Part shown: in pieces, positions 1,503-36,018 of the stretch
How positions within the stretch are numbered: the first letter of the stretch is position 1
Layout: each line of letters begins with the position of its first letter
IMG/VR virus record: IMGVR_UViG_3300045747_000409
Span: 1-36,018 of that record
Reading direction: 5' to 3' (one strand)
Length of the DNA stretch: 36,018 nt
DNA from: a virus
The notes under the pieces: model-generated
What the model was told of the DNA's origin: nothing
Seen by the model: the letters and a program-made list of their open reading frames with translations, nothing else
The model's database searches: none
Made by a program: the position numbers and the translations under genes

Positions 1503-4054
1503 TGGCACAAGGCGGACCTCCACCACAAGTCATCAATCTCCGTATCTCGGGTCTGTACACGAACCCGAGCACGTTCACACAGGTACCTCCGGGTGCTCTG
1601 TCGGTGGCTGACAACATCGTAATCGACCGCGAGAACTTCGCGTTCACGCGTCGGGGCATGTTCCGTTACGGAACTGGATTCGATAGTACTGGTGTGCAGT
1701 CCCTGTTCAACTACGCGAACACCCTGATTGCGCACGATCAGAATACGCACCTCTGGTACGACTCGAATGACAACGGTGCTTGGGTTCAGTACACCGGTTC
1801 GTTCCCAGTGCCGGATGTGTCAGTACCTGGCTCACGTGTTCGCTCATTCGAGTCGAACAAGAACCTGTACTTCATCACATCGAATGGCACGTTCAAGCTT
1901 GATTCGGTCACGAACGAGCCACGACTTGCTGGTGCTCCACAAGCCCTCGGTGGCACTGGATCAACAACCGGTGCTTCTGGATTCATGACGACGAATACGA
2001 ATGTAGCTTACCGCATTGTGTGGGGCTACAAGGACGCGCAGTCGAACCTGATTCTGGGTGCGCCGTCACAACGAATTGTGGTCTCGAATACCGCTGGTGC
2101 TGATCGGAACATCTCGCTGACGTTCCAGATCCCAGCTGAGATCGACACCACCTGGTTCTACCAGATCTACCGCTCGCTGCCGAGCCCAGATCTGACTACA
2201 GAGCCGAATGACGAATTGCAGCAGACGATCGAAGGTGTTCCAACATCAGCCGAAATCAGTGCCCGGTTCGTAACCGTCACTGACAGTACACCGGACTCTC
2301 TGCTGCAACAATATCTGTACACGAACCCGTCACAGGGTGGCATTCTGCTCTCGAACTTCCGTCCTCCGTTCGCGATGGATGCGTGCACGTTCAAGGGGTA
2401 CTCGTTCTACGCGAACACTCGGACTGCGCACATGTACTCAGTGAATCTGCTGAGCTCAGAACCGCCAGTTGGACTTCAAGTCGGCGACACAGTGACCTTT
2501 ACGCTCGCGGATTCAACATCGACATTCACCCTGACTGGGAATGCCGCTGAAGTTCCTGCCTCTGGTCTGTTCCAGGTGTTCAACACTGGGAATCCAGCTA
2601 CTGACATCGAGAACACGTCGCTGAGCCTACTTCGTGTCCTGAACGTGTACGCCGCGAATACATTCCTTGATGGGTACTACCTCAGTGACTACCAAGGCAT
2701 TCCAGGCCAGCTCCAGTTCAATGAGCGCACGCTGAGCTCTGTCGGGTTCTTCATGAACAGCTCGCGGACGACTGCTTGGACTCCGTCAGTGGCTGCCACT
2801 GGGACGAACAGTTCCTCGACGAACGACCTTGCTCCGTCACGTGTGTACTACAGCTCATCGCTTCAACCAGAAGCGGTGCCGGTCCTGAATTGGTTCACCG
2901 TTGGTAACCTGAACCAGCCGATTCAACGCATTGTTCCAGTTCGTGACGGGATCATCGTCCTGAAGCCGGACGGGATTTACAACATCTCTGGCTCCGCTGG
3001 TCAGTGGGCAGTTCAGGGCGTGGATAACACGGTCCGAATCATTGCTCCGAACACTGCGGTGGCACTGGACAACCAGGTGTTCATGCTCAGTGACCAAGGT
3101 GTAGTCGCCGCGACGACATCTGCCGCTCAGATCATGTCGCGTCCAATCGAGCGCACAATTCTTCAACTTACTTCACCAACTCAGTACCCGAACACGGCTG
3201 ATCTCGCATTCGCTGTTCCGTACTCTGCTGACCGGAAGTACATTCTGAACTTGCCAGTCACCGGCACTGATGCGTACTGCCAGCAGCAGTACTGCTACAA
3301 CACGGTCACGAACACGTGGACTCGTTGGACTCGTCCTTCGCTCTGTGGTCTCGTGAACATCCGTGATGACAAGCTGTACTTCGGTGGTCCTTCGTTCCCA
3401 GTGTTCGGCGGTGCTGTGTACAAGGAACGGAAGACATTCACTGTGCTCGACATGGCTGACGAAGAATTCGCACTCACTGTGACTGCTCGTACTTCACTGA
3501 CGATCACCGTCGCGGATGTTAGCAATGTTCAAGTCGGAATGACTATCACTCAGGAGTCCTCGGCATCATCTGGGATCGTGACTTCAATCGTTGGGAACGT
3601 GATCACGCTTAGCCACACGAATGTGTGGACCCTTGGTACTGCGATCGCGTACGCTCCAATCGATGCTCAGCTGAAGACGGTTCAGCTCGATTGCGAGAAC
3701 CCAGGCATGATGAAGCAGTTCAAGGAGGTCAGCTTCATTTACTCCGAAGCGAACTTCAAGCAGATGCAAGCGTACTTCAGCTCCGATGTGAACGGTGGCG
3801 AGGTGATGCAGACTCTTCGTCCTCCACAACAGGGTTCCTGGGGTGGATTCAACTGGGGTGAAGTCGCCTGGGGTGGGAACGTTGTGGCTGGTCAGTGCCG
3901 AATTCGGACTCTGGTTCCAACGGCACAACAACGTGCGAACTGGTTGTACATCCGTCTCGCCCTGAAGCAGTGCTTCACATCATTCGGAATCTCCGGATTC
4001 TCAGCGTGGGTGAACTGGACGTCAGCTCGTCAGCGTCAGGCAGGTGACAGATGA
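1502..4054 (+). CDS. Tail nozzle / tail stabilisation-like protein
   Basis: 850 residues if started at ATG 1502, which overlaps the upstream stop as TAATG and has GAAGGG about 10 bases before it; an upstream in-frame ATG at 1493 is less well placed. The protein is beta-rich with repeated Trp/Tyr/Gly blades, for example NLYFITSNGTFKLDSV, and a C-terminus with RIRTLVPTAQQRANWL followed by a GFSAWV segment. This layout resembles podophage nozzle proteins (P22 gp10-like, T7 gp12-like) that close the tail below the adaptor. An inserted-looking segment around residues 660-720 (LTVTARTSLTITVADVSNV) resembles small beta modules seen in other tail proteins. The exact family is uncertain. Confidence 0.6.
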   Translation: MAQGGPPPQVINLRISGLYTNPSTFTQVPPGALSVADNIVIDRENFAFTRRGMFRYGTGFDSTGVQSLFNYANTLIAHDQNTHLWYDSNDNGAWVQYTGSFPVPDVSVPGSRVRSFESNKNLYFITSNGTFKLDSVTNEPRLAGAPQALGGTGSTTGASGFMTTNTNVAYRIVWGYKDAQSNLILGAPSQRIVVSNTAGADRNISLTFQIPAEIDTTWFYQIYRSLPSPDLTTEPNDELQQTIEGVPTSAEISARFVTVTDSTPDSLLQQYLYTNPSQGGILLSNFRPPFAMDACTFKGYSFYANTRTAHMYSVNLLSSEPPVGLQVGDTVTFTLADSTSTFTLTGNAAEVPASGLFQVFNTGNPATDIENTSLSLLRVLNVYAANTFLDGYYLSDYQGIPGQLQFNERTLSSVGFFMNSSRTTAWTPSVAATGTNSSSTNDLAPSRVYYSSSLQPEAVPVLNWFTVGNLNQPIQRIVPVRDGIIVLKPDGIYNISGSAGQWAVQGVDNTVRIIAPNTAVALDNQVFMLSDQGVVAATTSAAQIMSRPIERTILQLTSPTQYPNTADLAFAVPYSADRKYILNLPVTGTDAYCQQQYCYNTVTNTWTRWTRPSLCGLVNIRDDKLYFGGPSFPVFGGAVYKERKTFTVLDMADEEFALTVTARTSLTITVADVSNVQVGMTITQESSASSGIVTSIVGNVITLSHTNVWTLGTAIAYAPIDAQLKTVQLDCENPGMMKQFKEVSFIYSEANFKQMQAYFSSDVNGGEVMQTLRPPQQGSWGGFNWGEVAWGGNVVAGQCRIRTLVPTAQQRANWLYIRLALKQCFTSFGISGFSAWVNWTSARQRQAGDR

Positions 4055-11786: not shown

Positions 11787-11911
11787 TGCCATTCCTTCGT
11801 AGGTGCCGGGCGGCTTGCGAGCCACTGGCGTTGTTGTACGTGACGAACGGCTTGTGGGTACTCTAGGCCGAGTTCGCCCATGACTCGTTGTACTTGCTGT
11901 TCGAAGCTCAT
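11783..11911 (-). CDS. 42-residue protein, unknown function
   Basis: Encodes MSFEQQVQRVMGELGLEYPQ and continues through VQQRQWLASRPAPTKEWQ. Both ends are ATGA overlaps: its ATG (11909-11911) overlaps the stop of the 132-residue gene, and its TGA overlaps the start of the membrane protein. This double coupling and a charged amphipathic helix argue that it is real despite its size. Short proteins of this VxRVMxELGLxYxQA type are familiar in phage early regions, but I cannot assign a function. Confidence 0.6.
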   Translation of the reverse strand: MSFEQQVQRVMGELGLEYPQAVRHVQQRQWLASRPAPTKEWQ

Positions 11912-12306
11912 GCTGCTTCCAGTGCGTTCATCTTCGCAGTGTACGCGACTTGATCGGTGATGATCGGGCTGAAGTTCATCCGGATGAACGAGAGCTGATT
12001 CATTGCCGCTTCACGCTGCGCCTTGGTGCCAGGAGGAATCCCGTCCAGCACACCTGACAAGTACGACAACTGCATCGACGTGTACCACGGGTAAACCTCA
12101 CCGTAGTTCCGCAGTGTGTCGCCGTACCGATCGGCTGAGATCACCAGAGCCGCTGAGTAACAGTCGAATTCGCCGAGAGCACGTTCGCACAGCTTCAGTT
12201 CGCGGTGGAACTTCACACCGCCGTGGCACTTGCCTGGCTCGTCAAGGGTGCTCAGGGCACCGTTCACTTCACGGATGAACATGCGGAGCTTGGAAGAGAT
12301 GTACAT
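11908..12306 (-). CDS. Early-region protein of unknown function
   Basis: 132 residues beginning MYISSKLRMFIREVNGAL, probably a helical cytoplasmic protein with a few Cys (KCHGG, KLCERAL). The start codon lies in a leader block that is nearly identical to the one before the gene at 12749, and both proteins begin Met-Tyr-Ile because the duplicated block includes the first codons. First gene of a three-gene coupled unit ending at 11487. No family recognised. Confidence 0.65.
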   Translation of the reverse strand: MYISSKLRMFIREVNGALSTLDEPGKCHGGVKFHRELKLCERALGEFDCYSAALVISADRYGDTLRNYGEVYPWYTSMQLSYLSGVLDGIPPGTKAQREAAMNQLSFIRMNFSPIITDQVAYTAKMNALEAA

Positions 12307-12345
12307 GGCTTGGAGTCCTGTTGTTGATTCGATGATGCTATCTTA
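12298..12345 (-). promoter_or_regulatory. Duplicated early leader and promoter, copy 1
   Basis: A 38-base leader at 12298-12335 matches 12741-12778 at 36 of 38 positions and includes the start codon of each gene. On the minus strand a -10-like TAAGAT (12340-12345) lies four bases upstream of the block, at the same distance as TAGAAT in copy 2. A shared word, GGTTGTTACACG on the minus strand, lies about 31 bases further upstream. The ribosome site inside the leader is weak (AGGA). Confidence 0.55.
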
Positions 12346-12392: not shown

Positions 12393-12749
12393 TCAGTTGT
12401 AACGAGAGATGATCTTCTCGAGGTTCTTCAGGCCGGGATGGGCGGCGAATGCTTCCGGGATCTCTTCGTAATAATCGCGCTTCGGCATGTGCGAGCTGAA
12501 GTCATCACCCTGCCCGTTCACGATCTGGACACAGAGTTCGGCAATCTTGTACGCATCGCCGTTCGGTTCGTAAGGTCCATTCCCGAGCTTCATGGGTTCG
12601 TCGAAGATCACCTTGCCACGGACCGTGACCACGATGTTCCGGCTTCCGGTCTCGAGCACGACTGGGATGTTCCCGCTGAGGACCATGGAGACACGGCCAC
12701 GGCCGTAATAGTCGAACTCAGAGGTGCGGAGAACTTTAAAGATGTACAT
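12393..12749 (-). CDS. Early-region protein of unknown function
   Basis: 118 residues beginning MYIFKVLRTSEFDYYGRG. The N-terminal half is beta-rich (VSMVLSGNIPVVLE, NIVVTVRGKVIF) and the C-terminal half helical with charged ends. It is preceded by copy 2 of the duplicated leader and by a divergent control region of 216 bases shared with the plus-strand coiled-coil gene. No enzyme motif and no membrane segment. Not recognised. Confidence 0.65.
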   Translation of the reverse strand: MYIFKVLRTSEFDYYGRGRVSMVLSGNIPVVLETGSRNIVVTVRGKVIFDEPMKLGNGPYEPNGDAYKIAELCVQIVNGQGDDFSSHMPKRDYYEEIPEAFAAHPGLKNLEKIISRYN

Positions 12750-12788
12750 GGCTTGGAGTCCAGTTGTTGATCCGATGAGTACATTCTA
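12741..12788 (-). promoter_or_regulatory. Duplicated early leader and promoter, copy 2
   Basis: Second copy of the 38-base leader (12741-12778), with TAGAAT at 12783-12788 on the minus strand as a -10 candidate. No good -35 box stands 17 bases upstream; the conserved GGTTGTTACACG lies at 12819-12830, about 30 bases upstream of the -10, where an activator or repressor might bind. Confidence 0.5.
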
Positions 12789-14586: not shown

Positions 14587-14777
14587 GACTTCATTCCTTC
14601 ACGGATGGCGTTGTTCTGTGCGATGTACTGCAGGAGGTCAGAGTTCAGCGCGACGAGGAACGTGAGGACATCGTCCTCGTTGAACTTCCCAGCACGAATC
14701 TGATGTTCACAATGGTTCGTTCTGACCTGAATCATTGTGGCGAGACGGATATCGAGGTCCAGTGGTTCGACGATCAT
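14583..14777 (-). CDS. Small early-region protein
   Basis: 64 residues (MIVEPLDLDIRLATMIQVRT...), predicted helical with a central Cys-His (NHCEHQIRAGKF). Both ends are ATGA overlaps with neighbouring genes, which makes it a convincing member of the minus-strand unit. It is possibly a small DNA- or protein-binding helper; nothing more can be said from sequence. Confidence 0.6.
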   Translation of the reverse strand: MIVEPLDLDIRLATMIQVRTNHCEHQIRAGKFNEDDVLTFLVALNSDLLQYIAQNNAIREGMKS

Positions 14778-15205
14778 GATGCATCCTTCAGCAGGGCTTC
14801 TTGTTCATCTTGTAGGATCTTCTCTTCGAGCTCAGCACGAGCCAGGAATTCCTGAACTTCAGGCGGGATGTACAAGTCCTGGTGTGATCTCAAGATGTAC
14901 GTCAGCAGGTTGTACCAGCCCTGATCTCCGGTGAATGCTTCGCGTAGGAGCATGCGACACCAGAACAGGTGCGCTGAGTCAGGTGTGTGAATATCCCAGA
15001 ACCTCGACTGAGCTTCCTTCGGCATCGCTTCGACGACCTTCAGCATCACATGAACTTGCTGTTCCTCGAGTTGTTCCTTCTGAAGGCGAAGAGCTGCATC
15101 ACTCATCTTCTTGATCGTGACCTCGCTGTGCTTCTTGCCCTTCGCTGCTTCGGCGATCTTCGCCTTGTGCTCTGCTGAGAGCTTCTTACCCTTGATTGCT
15201 GCCAT
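14774..15205 (-). CDS. NUMOD3-type DNA-binding motif protein lacking a nuclease domain
   Basis: 143 residues from ATG 15205, chosen because GGAGAACAAC directly precedes it, the same leader as in the gene starting at 15675; a longer start at 15268 would run into that gene. Residues 4-37 (KGKKLSAEHKAKIAEAAKGK, then KHSEVTIKKMSDAA) match NUMOD3 repeats, short basic DNA-contact modules normally attached to homing endonucleases. The remainder is helical (LKVVEAMPKEAQSRFWDI, PPEVQEFLARAELEEKIL) with no GIY-YIG or HNH residues. It may be a domesticated DNA-binding protein, such as a transcription or replication factor, or a relic of a homing enzyme. Confidence 0.7.
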   Translation of the reverse strand: MAAIKGKKLSAEHKAKIAEAAKGKKHSEVTIKKMSDAALRLQKEQLEEQQVHVMLKVVEAMPKEAQSRFWDIHTPDSAHLFWCRMLLREAFTGDQGWYNLLTYILRSHQDLYIPPEVQEFLARAELEEKILQDEQEALLKDAS

Positions 15206-15225
15206 GTTGTTCTCCAGTTCTAAGT

Positions 15226-15675
15226 TCAGGCGGTGATGAGGAGTTCCGGATGGTTCCGACGGAACCATCCGTCGAATGCGCTCGCCGAGAGATTGAATTG
15301 CTTCGAGACTCGGCCAGCTACAATCCGACCCCTATCGTTCCGGCAGAGGAACTTATCGGCGAGGACTTGCTCCATGGCGAATGCGAAGTCAGCGCGGTCA
15401 GTCGAGCCACGTGAACCCCAGGGCCTCCGTGTCCGTGTCTGAGGCTGTGTCTGAGCCGGAGCTTGAATCTTCTTCCCGCTGAGCTTCTCGGTCAGGCGGT
15501 TCCGATCGAACACCGCCTTGTTCAGTGCGGCCTGGCACTGAGTCACGAGGTCGTTCAGCTCGGCCAATTGCTGAAGCTCAGCGGCTCGTGATGTGGCAGC
15601 ACGTTCAGTTCGAACTGCTTCCAGTTCTGCGAGCAGGGCTGCTTCGCGGGCTTCGAGGGTGGTCTGTTCTGTCAT
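15226..15675 (-). CDS. Coiled-coil protein with conserved-looking C-terminal domain
   Basis: 149 residues. Residues 1-75 are a coiled coil (EAREAALLAELEAVRTERAA, ELNDLVTQCQAALNKAV); a basic Gln/Pro linker follows, and the C-terminus (FAMEQVLADKFLCRNDRGRI, SASAFDGWFRRNHPEL) could be a small DNA-binding fold of the helix-turn-helix type. The leader has a TAAATAC motif 47 bases upstream and the ribosome site GGAGAACAAC before the ATG. It might be a regulator, since it has its own promoter-like element inside the minus-strand block; this is inference. Confidence 0.65.
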   Translation of the reverse strand: MTEQTTLEAREAALLAELEAVRTERAATSRAAELQQLAELNDLVTQCQAALNKAVFDRNRLTEKLSGKKIQAPAQTQPQTRTRRPWGSRGSTDRADFAFAMEQVLADKFLCRNDRGRIVAGRVSKQFNLSASAFDGWFRRNHPELLITA

Positions 15676-15747: not shown

Positions 15748-16167
15748 TCACCAGCCCTTAGACTTGAACCACTTCAGCATCTCTTCTTCTGATCGCCAGA
15801 GGTTGCTCTCTGGGTACCGCTGCGACTTCTGTCGCATGATCTCCGGCACATCAGCAAGAGTTGGAGCTCGTTCCCAGTCCTTGTTCGGATAATCCCAGCA
15901 GCCGAAATACCCCGTGACCTTGTTCGCTGGGTCTGCTTGCATCTTCTTTACAATGGCATGCTCAGTTCGACGCTTCAGCCCTTCATCTGGGATCTTGTGC
16001 CCGAGCTCCTTCCATGCGTTCCGAAGTCGAGCTTCTGCTTGTTCGCAGGTCTCAATGATCTCTGCTGCCAGAAGGAGCTCAGCTTGCTTAGCCGACTCGA
16101 TTGGACGAAGCTTCTGCATCTTCACTAGTGTGTTCAGCAGTCGGCGGTATTGTGTTAGGATGTTCAC
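15748..16167 (-). CDS. Protein coupled to the polymerase-like gene, unknown function
   Basis: 139 residues. It starts at GTG 16167, overlapping the polymerase-like gene's stop as GTGA, so the two are translated together. The N-terminal two thirds are a charged helical bundle (LLNTLVKMQKLRPIESAKQA, LLLAAEIIETCEQAEARLRN); the C-terminus is Trp-rich (FGCWDYPNKDWERAP, EEEMLKWFKSKGW). Strict coupling suggests a partner in replication, for example a helicase loader or clamp-type accessory, but no motif supports a specific role. Confidence 0.6.
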   Translation of the reverse strand: MNILTQYRRLLNTLVKMQKLRPIESAKQAELLLAAEIIETCEQAEARLRNAWKELGHKIPDEGLKRRTEHAIVKKMQADPANKVTGYFGCWDYPNKDWERAPTLADVPEIMRQKSQRYPESNLWRSEEEMLKWFKSKGW

Positions 16168-17252
16168 TTGCGCTCCAATGTAATCTTCAGGCCGAGTTCA
16201 TTCAGCACTCGCTGCTGAAGTTCTGCGGTATTGATGTTCTGCGATGTTCTGTACCCGTCGTGTTCTAGGAAGTACTGAACACCAAGTTCGTCGAAGTACT
16301 TCACAGCAATCTCAAGGATCGCCCGCTCGTACTCGAAGTACAGCGACCACTTCTGGCTTCCCGACTTCAGCGGCAGGTTCGTGGAAGCACGAAGGGCGAT
16401 CCAGACCGAGCTGATGTTCTTCACGAGTAGCCGGATGTTCTCGTCCTCTTGGAGGATCTTCATTCGCTCCTTATCCTTATTCAGTAGCCGGAATGCTGAG
16501 CAGTACGGTGTGGCTTGCAATCGGCCACCGTTAAACAGGGATGTGCACAGTGACTTCGTATCGCTAGCATTCAGGCCGCTTAGTCGCTGAACGTACGACC
16601 TGAACTTCTTCGGGGCTGCTAGGTACGTGTTCACTGCTGTCAGGTTCTGTGTTCGTAGCCCTGCTTGTTCTGCTAGCTGCACGAGGATCGTGGGTGCGGC
16701 TGACACGATATCGTAGTTCCAATGTAGCCCGTGCTCAGTCCAGTACTCGTCCTTCTTCTCGCGTCGAATACGCTGGTGCTCATGCCACAGTCGCTGGCTC
16801 TTATCGGTGTACATGAACCCAGAATGCATGACTGACGGGATGATGACACCATGTACTGAATGGGCGGACTTCTGAGCCGGACTGTCAACTTCCTTTACAC
16901 TGGGTGGGATGATGACACCATGTACCTGGAGAGGGAGTGAAGAGACGAGGAGTGACTGAAGAAGCTGATGGTTGTTCTTGTTCAGGTAGTAGTCGGTGGA
17001 CTTCACGTCTCGTTGATGTGAATTCGGGACTTGGATTAGAAGTTCGGCTCGAAGGATTCGTCCAAGAGGTGTGCCTCGTCCTCCAAGTTCGAGTGCTAGC
17101 TTCTTGCTGTGCACTGCCGTCGGTCGAGATTCATGCAGGTACAATCCAGCCCAGTCGAGTGCTTGTTCGAATCGAGCTCGATTCCTTCTGTCCGTCATCA
17201 ATGGGATGATGACACCATGTACTGATTCAGTCGAAATGTGGGAATTAGTCAT
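16164..17252 (-). CDS. TV-Pol-like palm-domain replication protein (candidate primase/initiator)
   Basis: 362 residues. Residues 26-105 look like a winged-helix DNA-binding domain (KKLALELGGRGTPLGRILRA, STDYYLN). Residues 146-362 show the motif order of A-family-type palm domains: motif A YDIVSAAPTIL (D181), motif B DTKSLCTSLFNGG (K233, F240), an acidic helix LYFEYERAILE (304-314), and motif C LEHDGYRTSQ (H331, D332). This matches the published description of TV-Pol, a predicted family related to A-family DNA polymerases and T7 RNA polymerase found in virophages, transposons and some phages. The phrase VHGVIIP occurs at residues 11-17, 110-116 and 134-140, encoded by three identical DNA repeats. 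The gene follows an inverted-repeat candidate origin. It is the only replication-type gene visible. The assignment is by motifs only. Confidence 0.6.
   Translation of the reverse strand: MTNSHISTESVHGVIIPLMTDRRNRARFEQALDWAGLYLHESRPTAVHSKKLALELGGRGTPLGRILRAELLIQVPNSHQRDVKSTDYYLNKNNHQLLQSLLVSSLPLQVHGVIIPPSVKEVDSPAQKSAHSVHGVIIPSVMHSGFMYTDKSQRLWHEHQRIRREKKDEYWTEHGLHWNYDIVSAAPTILVQLAEQAGLRTQNLTAVNTYLAAPKKFRSYVQRLSGLNASDTKSLCTSLFNGGRLQATPYCSAFRLLNKDKERMKILQEDENIRLLVKNISSVWIALRASTNLPLKSGSQKWSLYFEYERAILEIAVKYFDELGVQYFLEHDGYRTSQNINTAELQQRVLNELGLKITLERK
16837..16859. repeat. Intragenic iteron-like repeat, copy 3
   Basis: The 20-bp word GGGATGATGACACCATGTAC plus TGA, identical over 23 bp to copy 1 at 17203-17225. 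The core ATGATGACACCAT is an imperfect dyad (ATGrTGwCAyCAT, 10 of 13 symmetric positions). It is read on the minus strand as SVHGVIIP. Confidence 0.8.
16906..16925. repeat. Intragenic iteron-like repeat, copy 2
   Basis: The same 20-bp word as at 16837 and 17203, starting 69 bp (23 codons) from copy 3 and 297 bp (99 codons) from copy 1. All wobble positions are identical across copies, which protein selection alone would not require. Confidence 0.8.
17203..17225. repeat. Intragenic iteron-like repeat, copy 1
   Basis: Same 23-bp sequence as copy 3, located 25 bases inside the start of the polymerase-like gene and 64 bases from the left arm of the 24-bp inverted repeat. Its placement near the start would suit autoregulation or initiator binding. 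Confidence 0.8.
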
Positions 17253-17288: not shown

Positions 17289-17380
17289 TATCAGATCACA
17301 ATGAACGTCGGCCACTGGAGAGTGGTGACATTGCGTCACTGAAGTCGGCGAACATTGCCGACGTTCATTGTGATCTGATA
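17289..17380. repeat. Perfect 24-bp inverted repeat with nested hairpins, candidate origin
   Basis: Arms 17289-17312 and 17357-17380 are exact reverse complements, with a 44-base spacer. The spacer holds CACT-GGAG-AGTG (17313-17324) and GTGAC-ATTGC-GTCAC (17325-17339). GTCGGC 17344-17349 can also pair with GCCGAC 17357-17362, and GTTCGCCG 17274-17281 with CGGCGAAC 17346-17353, so alternative folds exist. It lies in the 210-base divergent gap between the polymerase-like gene and the plus-strand genes. A cruciform origin, a primer RNA site or a bidirectional attenuator are possible; no T-tract follows. Confidence 0.75.
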
Positions 17381-19863: not shown

Positions 19864-20061
19864 ATGACCGAATCCGTTCAAGTCGCTTCGCAAGCCGTCG
19901 AGGCAACCGTCGCTCCGTCTCCAGTCGAGACCACCGAGGGCCTGTTCCAACACCTCGCGAACCTCCTGCACATCGCTCAGCAGTACAAGCTAGTTCACGA
20001 TGAGGTGAACCAGGACCTGAAGAAGCTGATCGACACGATCCTGGGTCGCGCTACCGCCTAA
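19864..20061 (+). CDS. Small helical protein preceding large terminase
   Basis: 65 residues: a disordered Val/Ala/Pro/Thr-rich head and a helical C-terminal half (GLFQHLANLLHIAQQYKLVH, DLKKLIDTIL). Ribosome site AAAGGA before the ATG. Its stop overlaps the terminase start (TAATG), so it is translated together with packaging genes. Unknown family. Confidence 0.6.
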   Translation: MTESVQVASQAVEATVAPSPVETTEGLFQHLANLLHIAQQYKLVHDEVNQDLKKLIDTILGRATA

Positions 20062-21557
20062 TGGCCTTCACCCGAGCCGAGCTCATCGAAGCTGCGTGGC
20101 ACAAGGCCGCCAGTGGACAAGGGCGCGGCTCGCTGAAGTTCCTGCTTCGGAAGCATCAGTACCCGATTTACGAGGCGATCTGGGATTGCCTCGAGGACCC
20201 TTCGCCGGAGCACAGCTCTCACGTTGTGAACTGTTCCCGTCAGTTCGGGAAGAGCTTCACTGAGATCGTGATTGCGACTGAGGTCTGTCTCGCAAGAGGG
20301 AACCGCACAGTCCTGTTCGTGGCTCCGTACAAGTCACAAGCCGAAGAGATTCTGACTGGGAAGACTTACGGGACGATCTTCGAGACGTGCCCCACTCAAT
20401 TCAAGCCACGACTCGATGGGAACAACGTTCAGTTCCCGAATGGCTCTCGCATTCGACTGAACGGCACTGACAACAAGAACTACGAGTACCTTCGTGGTGG
20501 AGCTGCCGATGTGCTGATCCTCGACGAAGCCGGGTTCATGGCGAATCTCGAGTTCGGCGTCCTGCCAGCTCTGCAACCAATGCTGCAGACGACGAACGGT
20601 AAGACGATCATCAGCAGCACTCCACCACCGAATCTGGATCACCACTACACGGCAATCGTTCACGAGCACGCTGAACGTGGTCATCTGAGTACCTTTACGA
20701 TCTTCGAGAACACGAGCATCTCGCCAGATGCCCTGATCAAGGAGTACATGAACACGGGCTGTCAGAAGCAGCCCGATGGAACTTGGAAGCTCAGTACAAG
20801 GTTCCGTCGCGAGTTCATGGCCGAGCTGATCATGGAAGGCACAATGATGATCGCGAAGGACTGGAACGACGAGTTCATTCAAGATGTGCAGCCGAACGAG
20901 TTCCACGAGTACCACCACCGGTACGTGGGCATGGATCCTGGAGTCACCGACCTGAATGCGACGCTGTTCGGATATTACGATCATGCAAACGAGCTCCTGT
21001 TCATTCAGGACGAGCTTACTCATTCTGGCCAGACCCTGAACTCGGACATCCTCAGCCAGGACATCAAGAAGACGATGACGCTCCACTGGGCCGACATCAA
21101 GCCGTACCGAATGATCTCGGACAACAACAACAAGCACTTGGTTCAGGACCTTCGCTCGTTGTACGATCTGCCGTTCATCGGGACCACGAAGACGAAGTTG
21201 GAGACGCGGAAGGCGAATCAAGAAGAGGGCATGGTGAACAAGCTGAACACCTGGCTCCGTCAGGGCAGAATCCTTGTTCATCCGCGCTGCAAGATGCTCA
21301 TTGGATCCCTTCGTCATGGGATCTGGCGCGAAGATGGCGACAATCAGCGAACATTCGCTCAGTCGAAGACTTACGGGCACTACGACCACCTGGCTGCTCT
21401 TGTGTACCTTGTTCGGAACTGCGATATTCACACGAACCCAGTTCCGAGAACTCACGGGTTCAACAGCACGCACATGTTCATGCCGCAGGTCACTCGGCCT
21501 GAGCAGACGAGGAACCTCGAACGGTTCGCTAATGCCCTGGCACCTCATCGCCGCTAA
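20061..21557 (+). CDS. terL: Large terminase subunit (packaging ATPase/nuclease)
   Basis: 498 residues, the usual length. ATPase domain: Walker A-like CSRQFGKS (58-65), Walker B VLILDE (151-156) with the catalytic Glu, and the coupling motif SSTP (185-188). RNase H-like nuclease domain: D292 in YVGMDPGV, D354 in SDNNN and D442 in YGHYDHLAALVYL, the expected acidic triad. The enzyme docks on the portal, translocates DNA into the prohead with ATP, and cuts concatemers. It starts on the overlapping TAATG with the previous gene; its stop TAA is part of the TAAATAC motif that precedes the portal gene. Confidence 0.96.
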   Translation: MAFTRAELIEAAWHKAASGQGRGSLKFLLRKHQYPIYEAIWDCLEDPSPEHSSHVVNCSRQFGKSFTEIVIATEVCLARGNRTVLFVAPYKSQAEEILTGKTYGTIFETCPTQFKPRLDGNNVQFPNGSRIRLNGTDNKNYEYLRGGAADVLILDEAGFMANLEFGVLPALQPMLQTTNGKTIISSTPPPNLDHHYTAIVHEHAERGHLSTFTIFENTSISPDALIKEYMNTGCQKQPDGTWKLSTRFRREFMAELIMEGTMMIAKDWNDEFIQDVQPNEFHEYHHRYVGMDPGVTDLNATLFGYYDHANELLFIQDELTHSGQTLNSDILSQDIKKTMTLHWADIKPYRMISDNNNKHLVQDLRSLYDLPFIGTTKTKLETRKANQEEGMVNKLNTWLRQGRILVHPRCKMLIGSLRHGIWREDGDNQRTFAQSKTYGHYDHLAALVYLVRNCDIHTNPVPRTHGFNSTHMFMPQVTRPEQTRNLERFANALAPHRR

Positions 21558-21586: not shown

Positions 21587-23617
21587 ATGGAAAGCTCTAA
21601 GAACACACCCGATTGCTACTGGGCAGCCGATGACACGAAGGCTTGTGCCGCTGCCATGTCGGAGAAGATCGATGATTACTACTCGTATCTCCAGCAATCT
21701 GGGTACATGAGCCTGTGGTCGAAGATCTACAAGTACCACTTCGGCGGCAAGATTCGCATGGGTCGAATCAACAATGCCGGCGACTCCGGCGAGTACGCAG
21801 TCCTGAACGTGAACCACCTTCGGAACCTGCTGCTTCACATCCTTCAACTCGCTGTCGGTCAGCGTCCTGCCTGGGAGCCGCGAGCAATCAACTCGGATGT
21901 GATCTCGCAGAAGCAGACGATCCTTGCTCGTGGTCTCCTGGACTACTACATGCGCGAGAAGCGGCTCGAACGGTCCCTGAAGAAGGCAGCCGAGTTCAGC
22001 CTGTGCTTCGGCGAAGGATTCGTCAGTGCCCTGTGGAATGCGACTGGTGGGAAGACGTACGGCATCGACCCTGACACGAACATCGAAGCTCGTGAAGGTG
22101 ATCTCGTGTACAACGCACTCGAACCAATTGATGTGGTTCGTGATCCTCGCCTCGAGAACTACCGGAATCGTGACTGGCTGATCATCCGCAGTTACGTGAA
22201 CAAGTACGAGATGGCAGCGAAGTACCCTGAGTTCGCTGATCAACTGATCGCCATGGAACCTCACGTTGATGCTCGTCGGCACTATCGTCAGTCTGGCATC
22301 GGCCAGAGCTACGGTTCTGACCTGATCGAGCTGTTCACACTTTACCACACTCGGACTGACGCGTGCCCTGATGGTCGTCAGATGGAGATCATTGGTGATG
22401 ACATCATCCTGACCGACGGTCCTCTCGCTTATCGGCACCTTCCAATTCACCGTGCTGCTGCGAACGAGATCTTCGGAACTCCGTTCGGGTACACAGTGGC
22501 GTACGACCTGGCTGCCCTGCAAGAGAACTACGACACAACGTACTCGACAATCGTCACGAACCAGCAGATGTTCGGTGTTCAGAACATCCTGGTGCCGAAG
22601 GGCGGTGGGTTCAATGTGATCGACATGTCCGGTGGCCTCCGATTCGTCGAGTACGACACCGACATGGCGAAGCCAGAGTCCATGAAGCTCCTGGACACGC
22701 CAGCTGAGATCTTCAACTTCCTCGGCACAATCGAAGCCACAATGCAGACGATCTCGGGTGTGAACTCGGTCTCTCGCGGTGATCCACAGGCCTCGCTGAA
22801 GTCCGGTGCAGCTCTCGCCCTCGTTCAATCGATGGCGATTCAGTTCAATCAACAGCTTCAAGAAGCGTACATCGAGCTCCTCGAGGACGTCGGGACCTCC
22901 ACAATCGAGATCCTTCAGGACTACGCTGAAGTTCCTCGTGTGGCTGCGATCGCTGGGAAGTACAATCGCTCTTACGTCGAGGAATTCAGCGGCAAGGATC
23001 TGGCGAATATCGACCGTGTCATTGTGGATGCTGGGAACCCGATGATGCAGACTGTCGCCGGCAAGATGGAACTCGCAACTCAGATGCTGCAAGCTGGGTT
23101 CATCAAGATGCCTGACGAGCTCCTCTCAGTGATCAACACCGGGAATCTGCAGCCGATGGTTCAAGGGAAGTCCGCTGAGCTCCTGCAACTCGCACAAGAG
23201 AACGAAGAACTGAAGGCCGGCCGTGGTGTTCAGGTGATCATCACTGATGATCACGCGCTGCACCTCATGGAACACAAGTCCGTGCTCGCTGATCCAGAAG
23301 CTCGGAAGGACCCAGAGATGGTTCAGGCGACTCTCTCGCACATGCAGGAACACATCACGTTCCTGAAGTCGCCAGACTATCAAGATCTATTGCATCTCCT
23401 TGGTCAGCCGGCTCTGGGTGCCCCTCCGGCACCTCCAGGCGGTGCTCCTGCTGGTCCTTCCGCACCAGGAATGGGTGGGAATGCGGCACTTCCTGGACCG
23501 CCTGAGGCGAACGCGAATTCCCAGGTAGCTTCAATGCAGCCGTCGCAACCTTCACAACCGAAGAATGCGATGACTGGGCAAGAGTTCAATCCTACAACCG
23601 GCGGTCTCCCGTCGTAA
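21587..23617 (+). CDS. Portal protein (P22-like)
   Basis: 676 residues, close to the large portals of P22-like phages. It contains the helical wing and stem features of the fold (YYSYLQQSGYMSLWSKIYKY, HLRNLLLHILQLAVGQRPAW) and a DPRLENYRNRDWLIIRSYV segment in the clip-proximal region. A C-terminal Pro/Gly/Ala-rich tail (PPAPPGGAPAGPS) replaces the long P22 barrel. As a dodecamer it forms the DNA entry ring at one capsid vertex and contacts the terminase and adaptor. It lies directly between terminase and scaffold genes, the canonical position. An antisense frame opposite it is only a codon-bias shadow. Confidence 0.88.
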   Translation: MESSKNTPDCYWAADDTKACAAAMSEKIDDYYSYLQQSGYMSLWSKIYKYHFGGKIRMGRINNAGDSGEYAVLNVNHLRNLLLHILQLAVGQRPAWEPRAINSDVISQKQTILARGLLDYYMREKRLERSLKKAAEFSLCFGEGFVSALWNATGGKTYGIDPDTNIEAREGDLVYNALEPIDVVRDPRLENYRNRDWLIIRSYVNKYEMAAKYPEFADQLIAMEPHVDARRHYRQSGIGQSYGSDLIELFTLYHTRTDACPDGRQMEIIGDDIILTDGPLAYRHLPIHRAAANEIFGTPFGYTVAYDLAALQENYDTTYSTIVTNQQMFGVQNILVPKGGGFNVIDMSGGLRFVEYDTDMAKPESMKLLDTPAEIFNFLGTIEATMQTISGVNSVSRGDPQASLKSGAALALVQSMAIQFNQQLQEAYIELLEDVGTSTIEILQDYAEVPRVAAIAGKYNRSYVEEFSGKDLANIDRVIVDAGNPMMQTVAGKMELATQMLQAGFIKMPDELLSVINTGNLQPMVQGKSAELLQLAQENEELKAGRGVQVIITDDHALHLMEHKSVLADPEARKDPEMVQATLSHMQEHITFLKSPDYQDLLHLLGQPALGAPPAPPGGAPAGPSAPGMGGNAALPGPPEANANSQVASMQPSQPSQPKNAMTGQEFNPTTGGLPS

Positions 23618-35725: not shown

Positions 35726-36018
35726 ATGGGACTTCCAGCAACAGTGCTTCCACCGCCTTCCGGTGATGACGTCACGAGTCTGATTGCTCGCGCGAAGCTT
35801 CAGGAAATGGTGCCGAACTCGGATGTGACATTCCGAGACTCCGACATCATGACTCTGATGCAGCAAGAGCTGTACAGCACGATCGTGCCGTTGGTCATGT
35901 CCGCTCGCGAAGAGTACATGGTCGTGACACGCGACTACGTTCTTCCGAGTCAGGTTCCAGGGCAAGTCGAATCCGTCGTGAACTTCCTCGAGATTCCTGA
36001 AGAAGCATCCGGTCTCCG
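35726..36018 (+). CDS. Head-to-tail adaptor (neck) protein, 5' part
   Basis: First 97 codons of the 351-residue adaptor whose remaining part is read from the left end; the last 143 bases are also present at 1-143. It begins MGLPATVLPPPSGDDVTSLI after a strong GGAGG site (35717-35721). The N-terminal helix (DSDIMTLMQQELYSTIVPLV) fits the portal-docking part of podophage neck proteins. At codon 56 this copy reads Leu (TTG) where the left copy reads Ser (TCG). Confidence 0.68.
   Translation, partial: MGLPATVLPPPSGDDVTSLIARAKLQEMVPNSDVTFRDSDIMTLMQQELYSTIVPLVMSAREEYMVVTRDYVLPSQVPGQVESVVNFLEIPEEASGL
35876..36018. repeat. Terminal redundancy of circular assembly, right copy
   Basis: Second copy of the 143-base overlap, identical to 1-143 except T at 35892 versus C at 17. 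Removing one copy gives a 35,875-bp circle with the adaptor gene intact. Confidence 0.93.

Follow-up and report, generated by a model that had tools for sequence, protein, structure and literature searches.

A TV-Pol-related polymerase core with a predicted winged-helix head, and repeated DNA sites at its gene, in a small uncultured phage

The window analysed here is the whole of the IMG/VR virus record IMGVR_UViG_3300045747_000409 (36,018 nt), and its gene P0001 (16164-17252, minus strand, start codon ATG at 17252) was found to encode a 362-residue protein in which a predicted winged-helix head precedes a palm and fingers core related to TV-Pol, a family for which a primase-polymerase function was predicted in 2008 (Iyer, Abhiman and Aravind 2008, PMC2579912). 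On balance the protein is judged more likely than not to be an origin-binding primase-polymerase that has its origin in and around its own gene and uses replication proteins of the host, because a predicted DNA-binding head, a palm, repeats at the gene and the lack of any other recognisable replication gene occur together. An initial annotation, made from the sequence alone, had placed a 362-residue open reading frame (ORF) at these positions without giving its strand, which is the minus strand, and had proposed a small TV-Pol-type enzyme acting as primase and initiator with host replisome proteins. The intragenic repeats, the inverted repeat upstream of the gene and the widespread family described below did not form part of that annotation.

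With P0001 alone as the query, nothing significant was returned from Pfam, PHROGs, NCBIfam, PDB sequences, annotated phages or IMG/VR, and the sole lead was a protein of the Polaromonas plasmid pW9NP1 (E = 0.1 when the database was searched, 2e-8 when the two were compared as a single pair), the gene of which directly precedes repA and the motifs of which read SGRLYT...LQN (PolA-like), DYDLSNCH, TK...MYGA and QHDG. Relatives of this plasmid protein include one from Thauera sp. 28, and a Thauera sp. is also among the TV-Pol bearers listed in the TV-Pol paper (PMC2579912). The family was built outward from the plasmid match by alignment-based scans, in which IMG/VR loci were gained stepwise (L016-L018, L019-L028, L029-L071, with some contigs repeated, and L115), yielding about 50 further uncultured phage sequences with the same kind of gene, close to P0001 in length and architecture and often on contigs of 33-40 kb. 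P0001 and the two relatives tried had no significant match in the annotated phage collection, no cultured member of the family was found, and a profile of the 40-sequence family had no significant match among PDB sequences.

The polymerase core (residues 146-362; 16167-16817, minus strand) was recognised from VIA-align and hhalign matches. Across a family alignment of 40 sequences, comprising P0001 and its IMG/VR relatives, the invariant residues are S152, R154, Q160, Y180, D181, R218, K233, G242, W284, Y305, E309, F328, H331, D332 and G333; among these, all encoded on the minus strand, are R154 (16791-16793), D181 in the position of the motif A metal ligand (16710-16712), the motif B or fingers lysine K233 (16554-16556) and motif C, H331-D332-G333 (16254-16262). 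The residues initially singled out, namely D181 (YDIVSAAPTIL), K233, FNGG (240-243) and HDG (331-333), are all exactly where they had been placed and, judged from the alignment, are not a product of chance, as R154, D181, K233 and HDG are unchanged in all 40 sequences. The AlphaFold model of P0001 (predicted local distance difference test (pLDDT) 87.4, predicted template modelling score (pTM) 0.77) places D181 on a strand (178-182) and H331-D332 in the turn of a hairpin (327-330/333-336), which in the model is the arrangement of an A-family palm. VIA-align matched T7 DNA polymerase (1t7p) to residues ~134-362 (Z = 12.2, root-mean-square deviation 3.5 Å, 208 aligned), with similar scores for Pol theta, apPol, Klentaq and Klenow and Z = 10.2 for yeast mitochondrial RNA polymerase; the 50 rows listed (Z 10-12) were all but a few A-family DNA polymerases, the rest being mitochondrial RNA polymerase. 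A Foldseek search of viral models retrieved replication proteins of virophages, among them the Qinghai Lake virophage helicase/primase/polymerase and the Zamilon replication protein, together with a protein of an uncultured Caudovirales phage (E = 2e-8 to 1e-5).

A profile search against TV-Pol and a structure prediction had been suggested as checks of the initial assignment; both favoured it, and none of the outcomes named as refuting it was seen. The palm fold was seen with fingers and with motifs A, B and C in order, as in the superfamily A core. In hhalign, the profiles of the family and of the plasmid TV-Pol-type proteins align across the entire palm (99.5%, E = 3.2e-23), where R154 falls opposite R257 of the SGRLY hairpin, D181 opposite D285, K233 opposite K334 and HDG opposite HDG. 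Both palm aspartates, D181 and D332, are thus invariant and lie within a region matched by fold and by profile. The TV-Pol beta-hairpin arginine is represented by R154, which lies on the model strands 149-151/154-156 and pairs with the template-strand arginine of SGRLY in TV-Pol and TGRLSS in PolA; the template-strand role of this residue in TV-Pols has been described (PMC2579912). Because the plasmid profile match, the A-family fold match and the fold match to virophage proteins are all present, a TV-Pol-related palm is supported, and the assignment of P0001 as a variant form of the TV-Pol-related A-family core is well supported by alignment and model.

P0001 shares with the TV-Pol family (PMC2579912) a homologous palm and fingers, two catalytic aspartates, the HDG motif C, the conserved hairpin arginine, the fingers lysine, viral or mobile-element carriers and the lack of nuclease domains, but the relationship seen by profile and fold does not amount to the textbook membership implied by the initial annotation. 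The TV-Pol thumb, two antiparallel N-terminal helices counted within the minimal TV-Pol domain (PMC2579912), is not recognisable in the predicted model of P0001, and there is no room for it since only ~40 residues, mostly predicted to be disordered and modelled with low confidence, separate head and palm; the T7 DNA polymerase alignment itself begins at ~residue 134, at the palm. The RxxxK motif of the fingers is reduced to its lysine, as K233 is kept while position -4 is A229 in P0001 and carries no conserved arginine in the relatives, and the fingers aspartate D231 is likewise not conserved among them, R218 being invariant instead. Motif A has A186 at D+5, and the residue at K+8 is N241. PolI (DNA polymerase I) has a glutamate steric gate at motif A D+5, where T7 RNA polymerase has glycine, and both have a tyrosine at fingers K+8 (Tyr639 in T7 RNA polymerase). 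With A186 at D+5, the PolI glutamate gate is therefore absent. P0001 differs further from TV-Pols in having a predicted winged-helix head rather than a helicase fusion, in the DNA-level repeats at its gene and in the lack of a D5 helicase in its genome: of the usual associates of TV-Pols (D5 helicase, resolvase, integrase or transposase), the three searched for, D5_N, resolvase and tyrosine integrase, were found neither in the window nor in 12 near-complete relatives.

The head domain (residues 8-104; 16941-17231, minus strand) is predicted to be a winged helix-turn-helix (HTH) from the topology of the model, in which the element order H22-38 E45-48 H49-56 H62-71 E72-74 E85-90 H92-104 reproduces the H-E-H-H-E-E-H arrangement of winged-helix domains, and this assignment rests on topology more than on fold score. 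It is followed by a linker (residues 105-145; 16818-16940, minus strand) that is mostly predicted to be disordered, with pLDDT 47-64 at residues 101-140 and up to 73 at 141-150, that occupies the place of the thumb and that encodes two of the three repeat copies described below.

The description of P0001 as the only visible replication gene holds for the families searched: no ORF of the window contains a Walker A motif, and DNA_pol_A, D5_N, Helicase_C, IstB/DnaC, single-stranded DNA-binding protein (SSB) and DnaG_N were found neither in the window nor in the 12 near-complete relatives, with control genomes giving positive signal in these replication-family searches. The same was true of tyrosine integrase and serine resolvase, and DnaB_C, for which the search was limited to the 12 near-complete relatives, was found in none of them. 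A PHROGs scan of 60 ORFs from relatives gave no polymerase, primase or helicase among the best 25 of 78 families, which included terminases and portals as well as ParB-like nucleases and a methyltransferase. As P0001 is the sole window gene with BLAST relatives in all ten near-complete genomes compared (tail-gene matches being partial), this type of gene occurs in phages that otherwise differ, and at least 13 phages of 33-40 kb have no other recognisable replication gene.

Within the gene, a 20-nt sequence, GTACATGGTGTCATCATCCC, occurs three times on the minus strand, at 17203-17222, 16906-16925 and 16837-16856, each copy encoding VHGVIIP (residues 11-17, 110-116 and 133-139, respectively). 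All copies are in one frame and codon-identical, whereas shuffles predict 0 such occurrences, and the probability of the same six codons, the rare GTA included, being reused in both further copies is ~2e-6 under the codon usage of the phage. No dispersed copies were found elsewhere in the window. Directly upstream of the gene, a 24-nt arm at 17289-17312 is 100% complementary to its partner at 17357-17380 across a 44-nt loop, forming a predicted branched hairpin (z = -5.9); this is by far the longest close-spaced inverted repeat of the genome, as the other 400-nt intervals reach at most 12. The detrended cumulative GC skew peaks at ~17387, at the P0001 gene, and behaves similarly in the relative G015 (L072/L073), at ~27447.

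Most relatives carry a pair of direct repeats of 20-51 nt, one in the linker-coding stretch and the other 755-870 nt on, where the gene ends. Their sequences are built on two related cores, ATACCCTA[G/T]TGTA and CATATAGTGTA, and the site of the relative L020 reads ATACCCTAGTGTATNACAAGTC. Counted on the same loci that had defined the motif, many of which share ancestry and are not independent events, at least one copy is present at the polymerase gene in 28/42 loci and at least two copies in 24/42; 54 copies at the gene lie on the gene strand and 1 on the opposite strand, with 6 elsewhere in 535 kb, mostly weak. Spacing was matched in the repeat control, a simpler control being confounded by tail-fibre and terminal repeats. 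Conservation is at the DNA level, since the copies of two-copy loci are in different frames in 13/24 cases and the second copy starts beyond the stop codon in 13/24. An exact-pattern scan of the whole of IMG/VR for the commonest repeat, which is a freer test than the counts on motif-defining loci, placed 21/23 stretches at the polymerase gene, and six of these gene-associated stretches had not previously been used (L098, L099, L101, L107, L111 and L113). L096 and L104 have the motif but not this gene, and were discounted as chance matches or an unrelated operator. Placement is variable: in L030 and L044 the copies are in tandem and lie at the gene's 3' end or past it, copy 1 is upstream of the gene in L098, and an upstream inverted repeat encloses three tandem iterons in L068. 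In the subclade of P0001, perfect inverted repeats of 22 and 18 bp were identified in L029 and L031, starting at -132 and -136 (-128 in the window) with loops of 49 and 54 nt; these and the inverted repeat of P0001 occupy the same place and are unrelated in sequence, and 13 bp was reached by 1/131 control windows. In L030, no upstream inverted repeat was found. A repeat class (class B) that co-varies with an insertion in the head domain is real but belongs to one clade, and hence was not taken as independent evidence.

In the mechanism that we infer, the head (residues 8-104) would recognise and bind the repeated DNA sites inside and beside the P0001 gene, and the core (146-362, with R154, D181, K233 and D332) would be catalytically active and start DNA or primer synthesis de novo at these sites. 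The branched 24-bp inverted repeat and the three intragenic 20-nt repeats would together form the origin, and helicase, clamp, SSB and elongating polymerase would be supplied by the host. The earlier suggestion of a primase and initiator working with host proteins gains support from the winged-helix prediction, the repeats in cis and the lack of another replication gene. Precedents for parts of this mechanism are lambda ori, where four 19-bp iterons lie in the middle of gene O (PMC3985674), and the de novo priming by CCPol-MP of SCCmec (PMC7581432). Lambda O resembles P0001 as a DNA-binding initiator with binding repeats in its own coding sequence, both features being putative for P0001; it differs in working with lambda P and DnaB and in having no polymerase core, and the likeness is functional only. 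CCPol-MP (PMC7581432, PMC10061031) is likewise built on a small A-family core from a mobile element, it primes de novo with a partner (PMC7581432), and the helicase of the system binds a DNA site next to its own gene at which priming is preferred (PMC7581432). As CCPol-MP is a proven primase-polymerase (PMC7581432), the initial remark that little biochemistry is known for this family does not apply to this relative. CCPol, however, needs the partner MP, which has an OB-fold (oligonucleotide/oligosaccharide-binding fold), and has the helicase Cch2, whereas for P0001 neither an MP nor a helicase is recognisable and the protein includes a predicted DNA-binding domain of its own.

A combination of a phage A-family palm, no homologous thumb and an unrelated N-terminal globular domain is also found in divPolA2 of barbaviruses (PMC11348598), which stands beside a regular PolB in phages of 80-85 kb, whereas the P0001-type protein is the only recognised polymerase in phages of 33-40 kb. 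The plasmid TV-Pol-type proteins of Polaromonas pW9NP1 and pH8NP1 and of Thauera sp. 28 (L006, L007 and L012), although matched over the whole palm by hhalign, have a different and longer N-terminal region and retain the PolA-type SGRLY...LQN hairpin and the YG motif. The Polaromonas proteins (L006, 37-1653; L007, 5926-7431) carry the annotations 'hypothetical protein' and 'Clp protease N-terminal domain-containing protein', and are likely unrecognised replication enzymes. A 767-residue ORF with the same palm motifs was also noted in the 142-kb Nitratidesulfovibrio phage SRB7757 (L008, 4200-6503). Microcystis phage Ma-LMM01 has a 'putative DNA primase' that was not kept as a TV-Pol reference, since it turned out to be DnaG.

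Several observations weigh against an origin-binding primase-polymerase. No PDB entry was retrieved by Foldseek below E = 0.001, T7 DNA polymerase being found at E = 0.07 with probability 1.00, and the folds nearest to the head, mostly winged HTH proteins of the MarR/PadR/RTP kind, score weakly (all Z below 5). The replication-family searches may overlook very divergent helicases or other proteins, and the GC-skew extreme at the polymerase gene is restricted to the window and G015, no other relative showing it. The repeat of P0001 is unlike those of most relatives in sequence and flanks the head, not the palm; its nearest relatives L029, L031 and L115 have no such direct repeats, neither a direct nor an inverted repeat being found in L115, and in some relatives (e.g. 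L019, L053 and L061) repeats and a long inverted repeat are both missing. Nor does a pair of sites ~800 bp apart make a classical iteron cluster.

Other readings of the repeats were weighed on the same data. The polymerase could be real and the repeats autoregulatory operators for the head or for another phage repressor, with no role as an origin. The commonest motif is quasi-palindromic (ATAC-C-CTAG-T-GTAT), like the sites of dimeric HTH proteins, the sites are concentrated at one gene, and in L096, an unrelated contig, ATACCCTAGTGTAT (3975-3996) and a near copy stand directly upstream of a predicted HTH-repressor ORF; however, most sites lie within the gene or at its 3' end, a poor position for an operator, and the tandem copies of L030 and L044 lie at or beyond that end, so that this reading is considered unlikely. 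A single-subunit RNA polymerase, like T7 RNA polymerase or as suggested for divPolA2, with the repeats as its promoters, would accord with the small A186 at the position of the PolI glutamate gate (compare glycine in T7 RNA polymerase), with the fold match to yeast mitochondrial RNA polymerase and with the repeat itself, which in reverse complement (TACACTATATG, TACACTAGGG) looks like T7/SP6 promoters. The full records nevertheless show the motif only at the polymerase gene, bar a stray copy with 3 mismatches, and never before other operons, the T7-type Tyr639 is absent (N241) and the window repeat has no dispersed copies; the T7-type promoter was rejected as the principal explanation of the repeats because the motif is not dispersed, and an RNA polymerase is regarded as decidedly improbable.

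There is only a very slight chance that the repeats mark cassette boundaries or sites of recombination, at which the palm-coding segment of an ordinary TV-Pol-like enzyme is swapped or excised. Copies within one genome are 88-100% identical over 40-51 nt with differing flanks, seem homogenised, and flank the palm-coding segment in many phages, but they are not placed alike (upstream, in the middle or in tandem at the 3' end), an excised form was not encountered and no tyrosine or serine recombinase family was detected in 13 genomes; the promoter and recombination readings are both weakened by this lack of dispersed sites and of recombinases, respectively. It is very unlikely that P0001 is not a replication protein but a polymerase for repair or translesion synthesis, or else a regulatory relative that has lost catalysis: divPolA2, likewise a phage PolA lacking a thumb, is not regarded as the replicase of the phages that carry it (PMC11348598), and the branch of P0001 in the palm tree is long, yet the catalytic residues are all invariant in the 40 sequences and the gene is the only one common to otherwise unrelated small phages, which have no additional PolA-type polymerase.

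The P0001 gene is the most upstream member of a leftward-running gene block and is followed, with a 4-nt overlap, by an ORF of 139 residues (15748-16167, minus strand), the product of which had no match in a family search, including none to an MP- or SSB-like partner. The window carries a terminal repeat of 143 bp (1-143 and 35876-36018) with a single mismatch, C/T at position 17, and because the left-end ORF stays in frame when the record ends are joined, the genome is complete and terminally redundant at ~35.9 kb, though the record is classed linear. Portal and terminase genes (20061-21557 and 21587-23617) have matches in the Silvanigrella aquatica phage CP017838.1 (portal, 26% identity over 82%; terminase, 23%, E = 9e-17), a motif search of the Silvanigrella phage L002, which has portal homology with the window, gave no P0001-like protein, and the structural genes of the window and those of the P0001-bearing relatives are not common to both at the BLAST level. 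The ORF at 885-1502 may encode a GIY-YIG homing endonuclease (weak match) and overlaps its neighbours, and that at 14774-15268 contains NUMOD3. An 18-nt stretch is identical at 12297-12314 and 12740-12757, where it heads the small leftward ORFs 11908-12306 and 12393-12749, and is probably a duplicated translation-start or promoter region.

For the family as a whole, it is plausible, if still short of an even chance, that this group of small phages starts replication with one protein, in which a winged-helix head and a thumb-less palm would act at an origin in and beside their own gene, marked by repeats or an upstream branched palindrome, and would begin priming de novo with no helicase, SSB or partner protein from the phage. 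The predicted head, the core and the candidate origin are packed into ~1.3 kb and the proteins are of ~360 residues, in contrast to the tested TV-Pol relative CCPol-MP, which depends on a partner protein and is accompanied by a helicase. The minimal needs of a palm enzyme for starting replication thereby become directly testable, with the repeats as ready DNA substrates.
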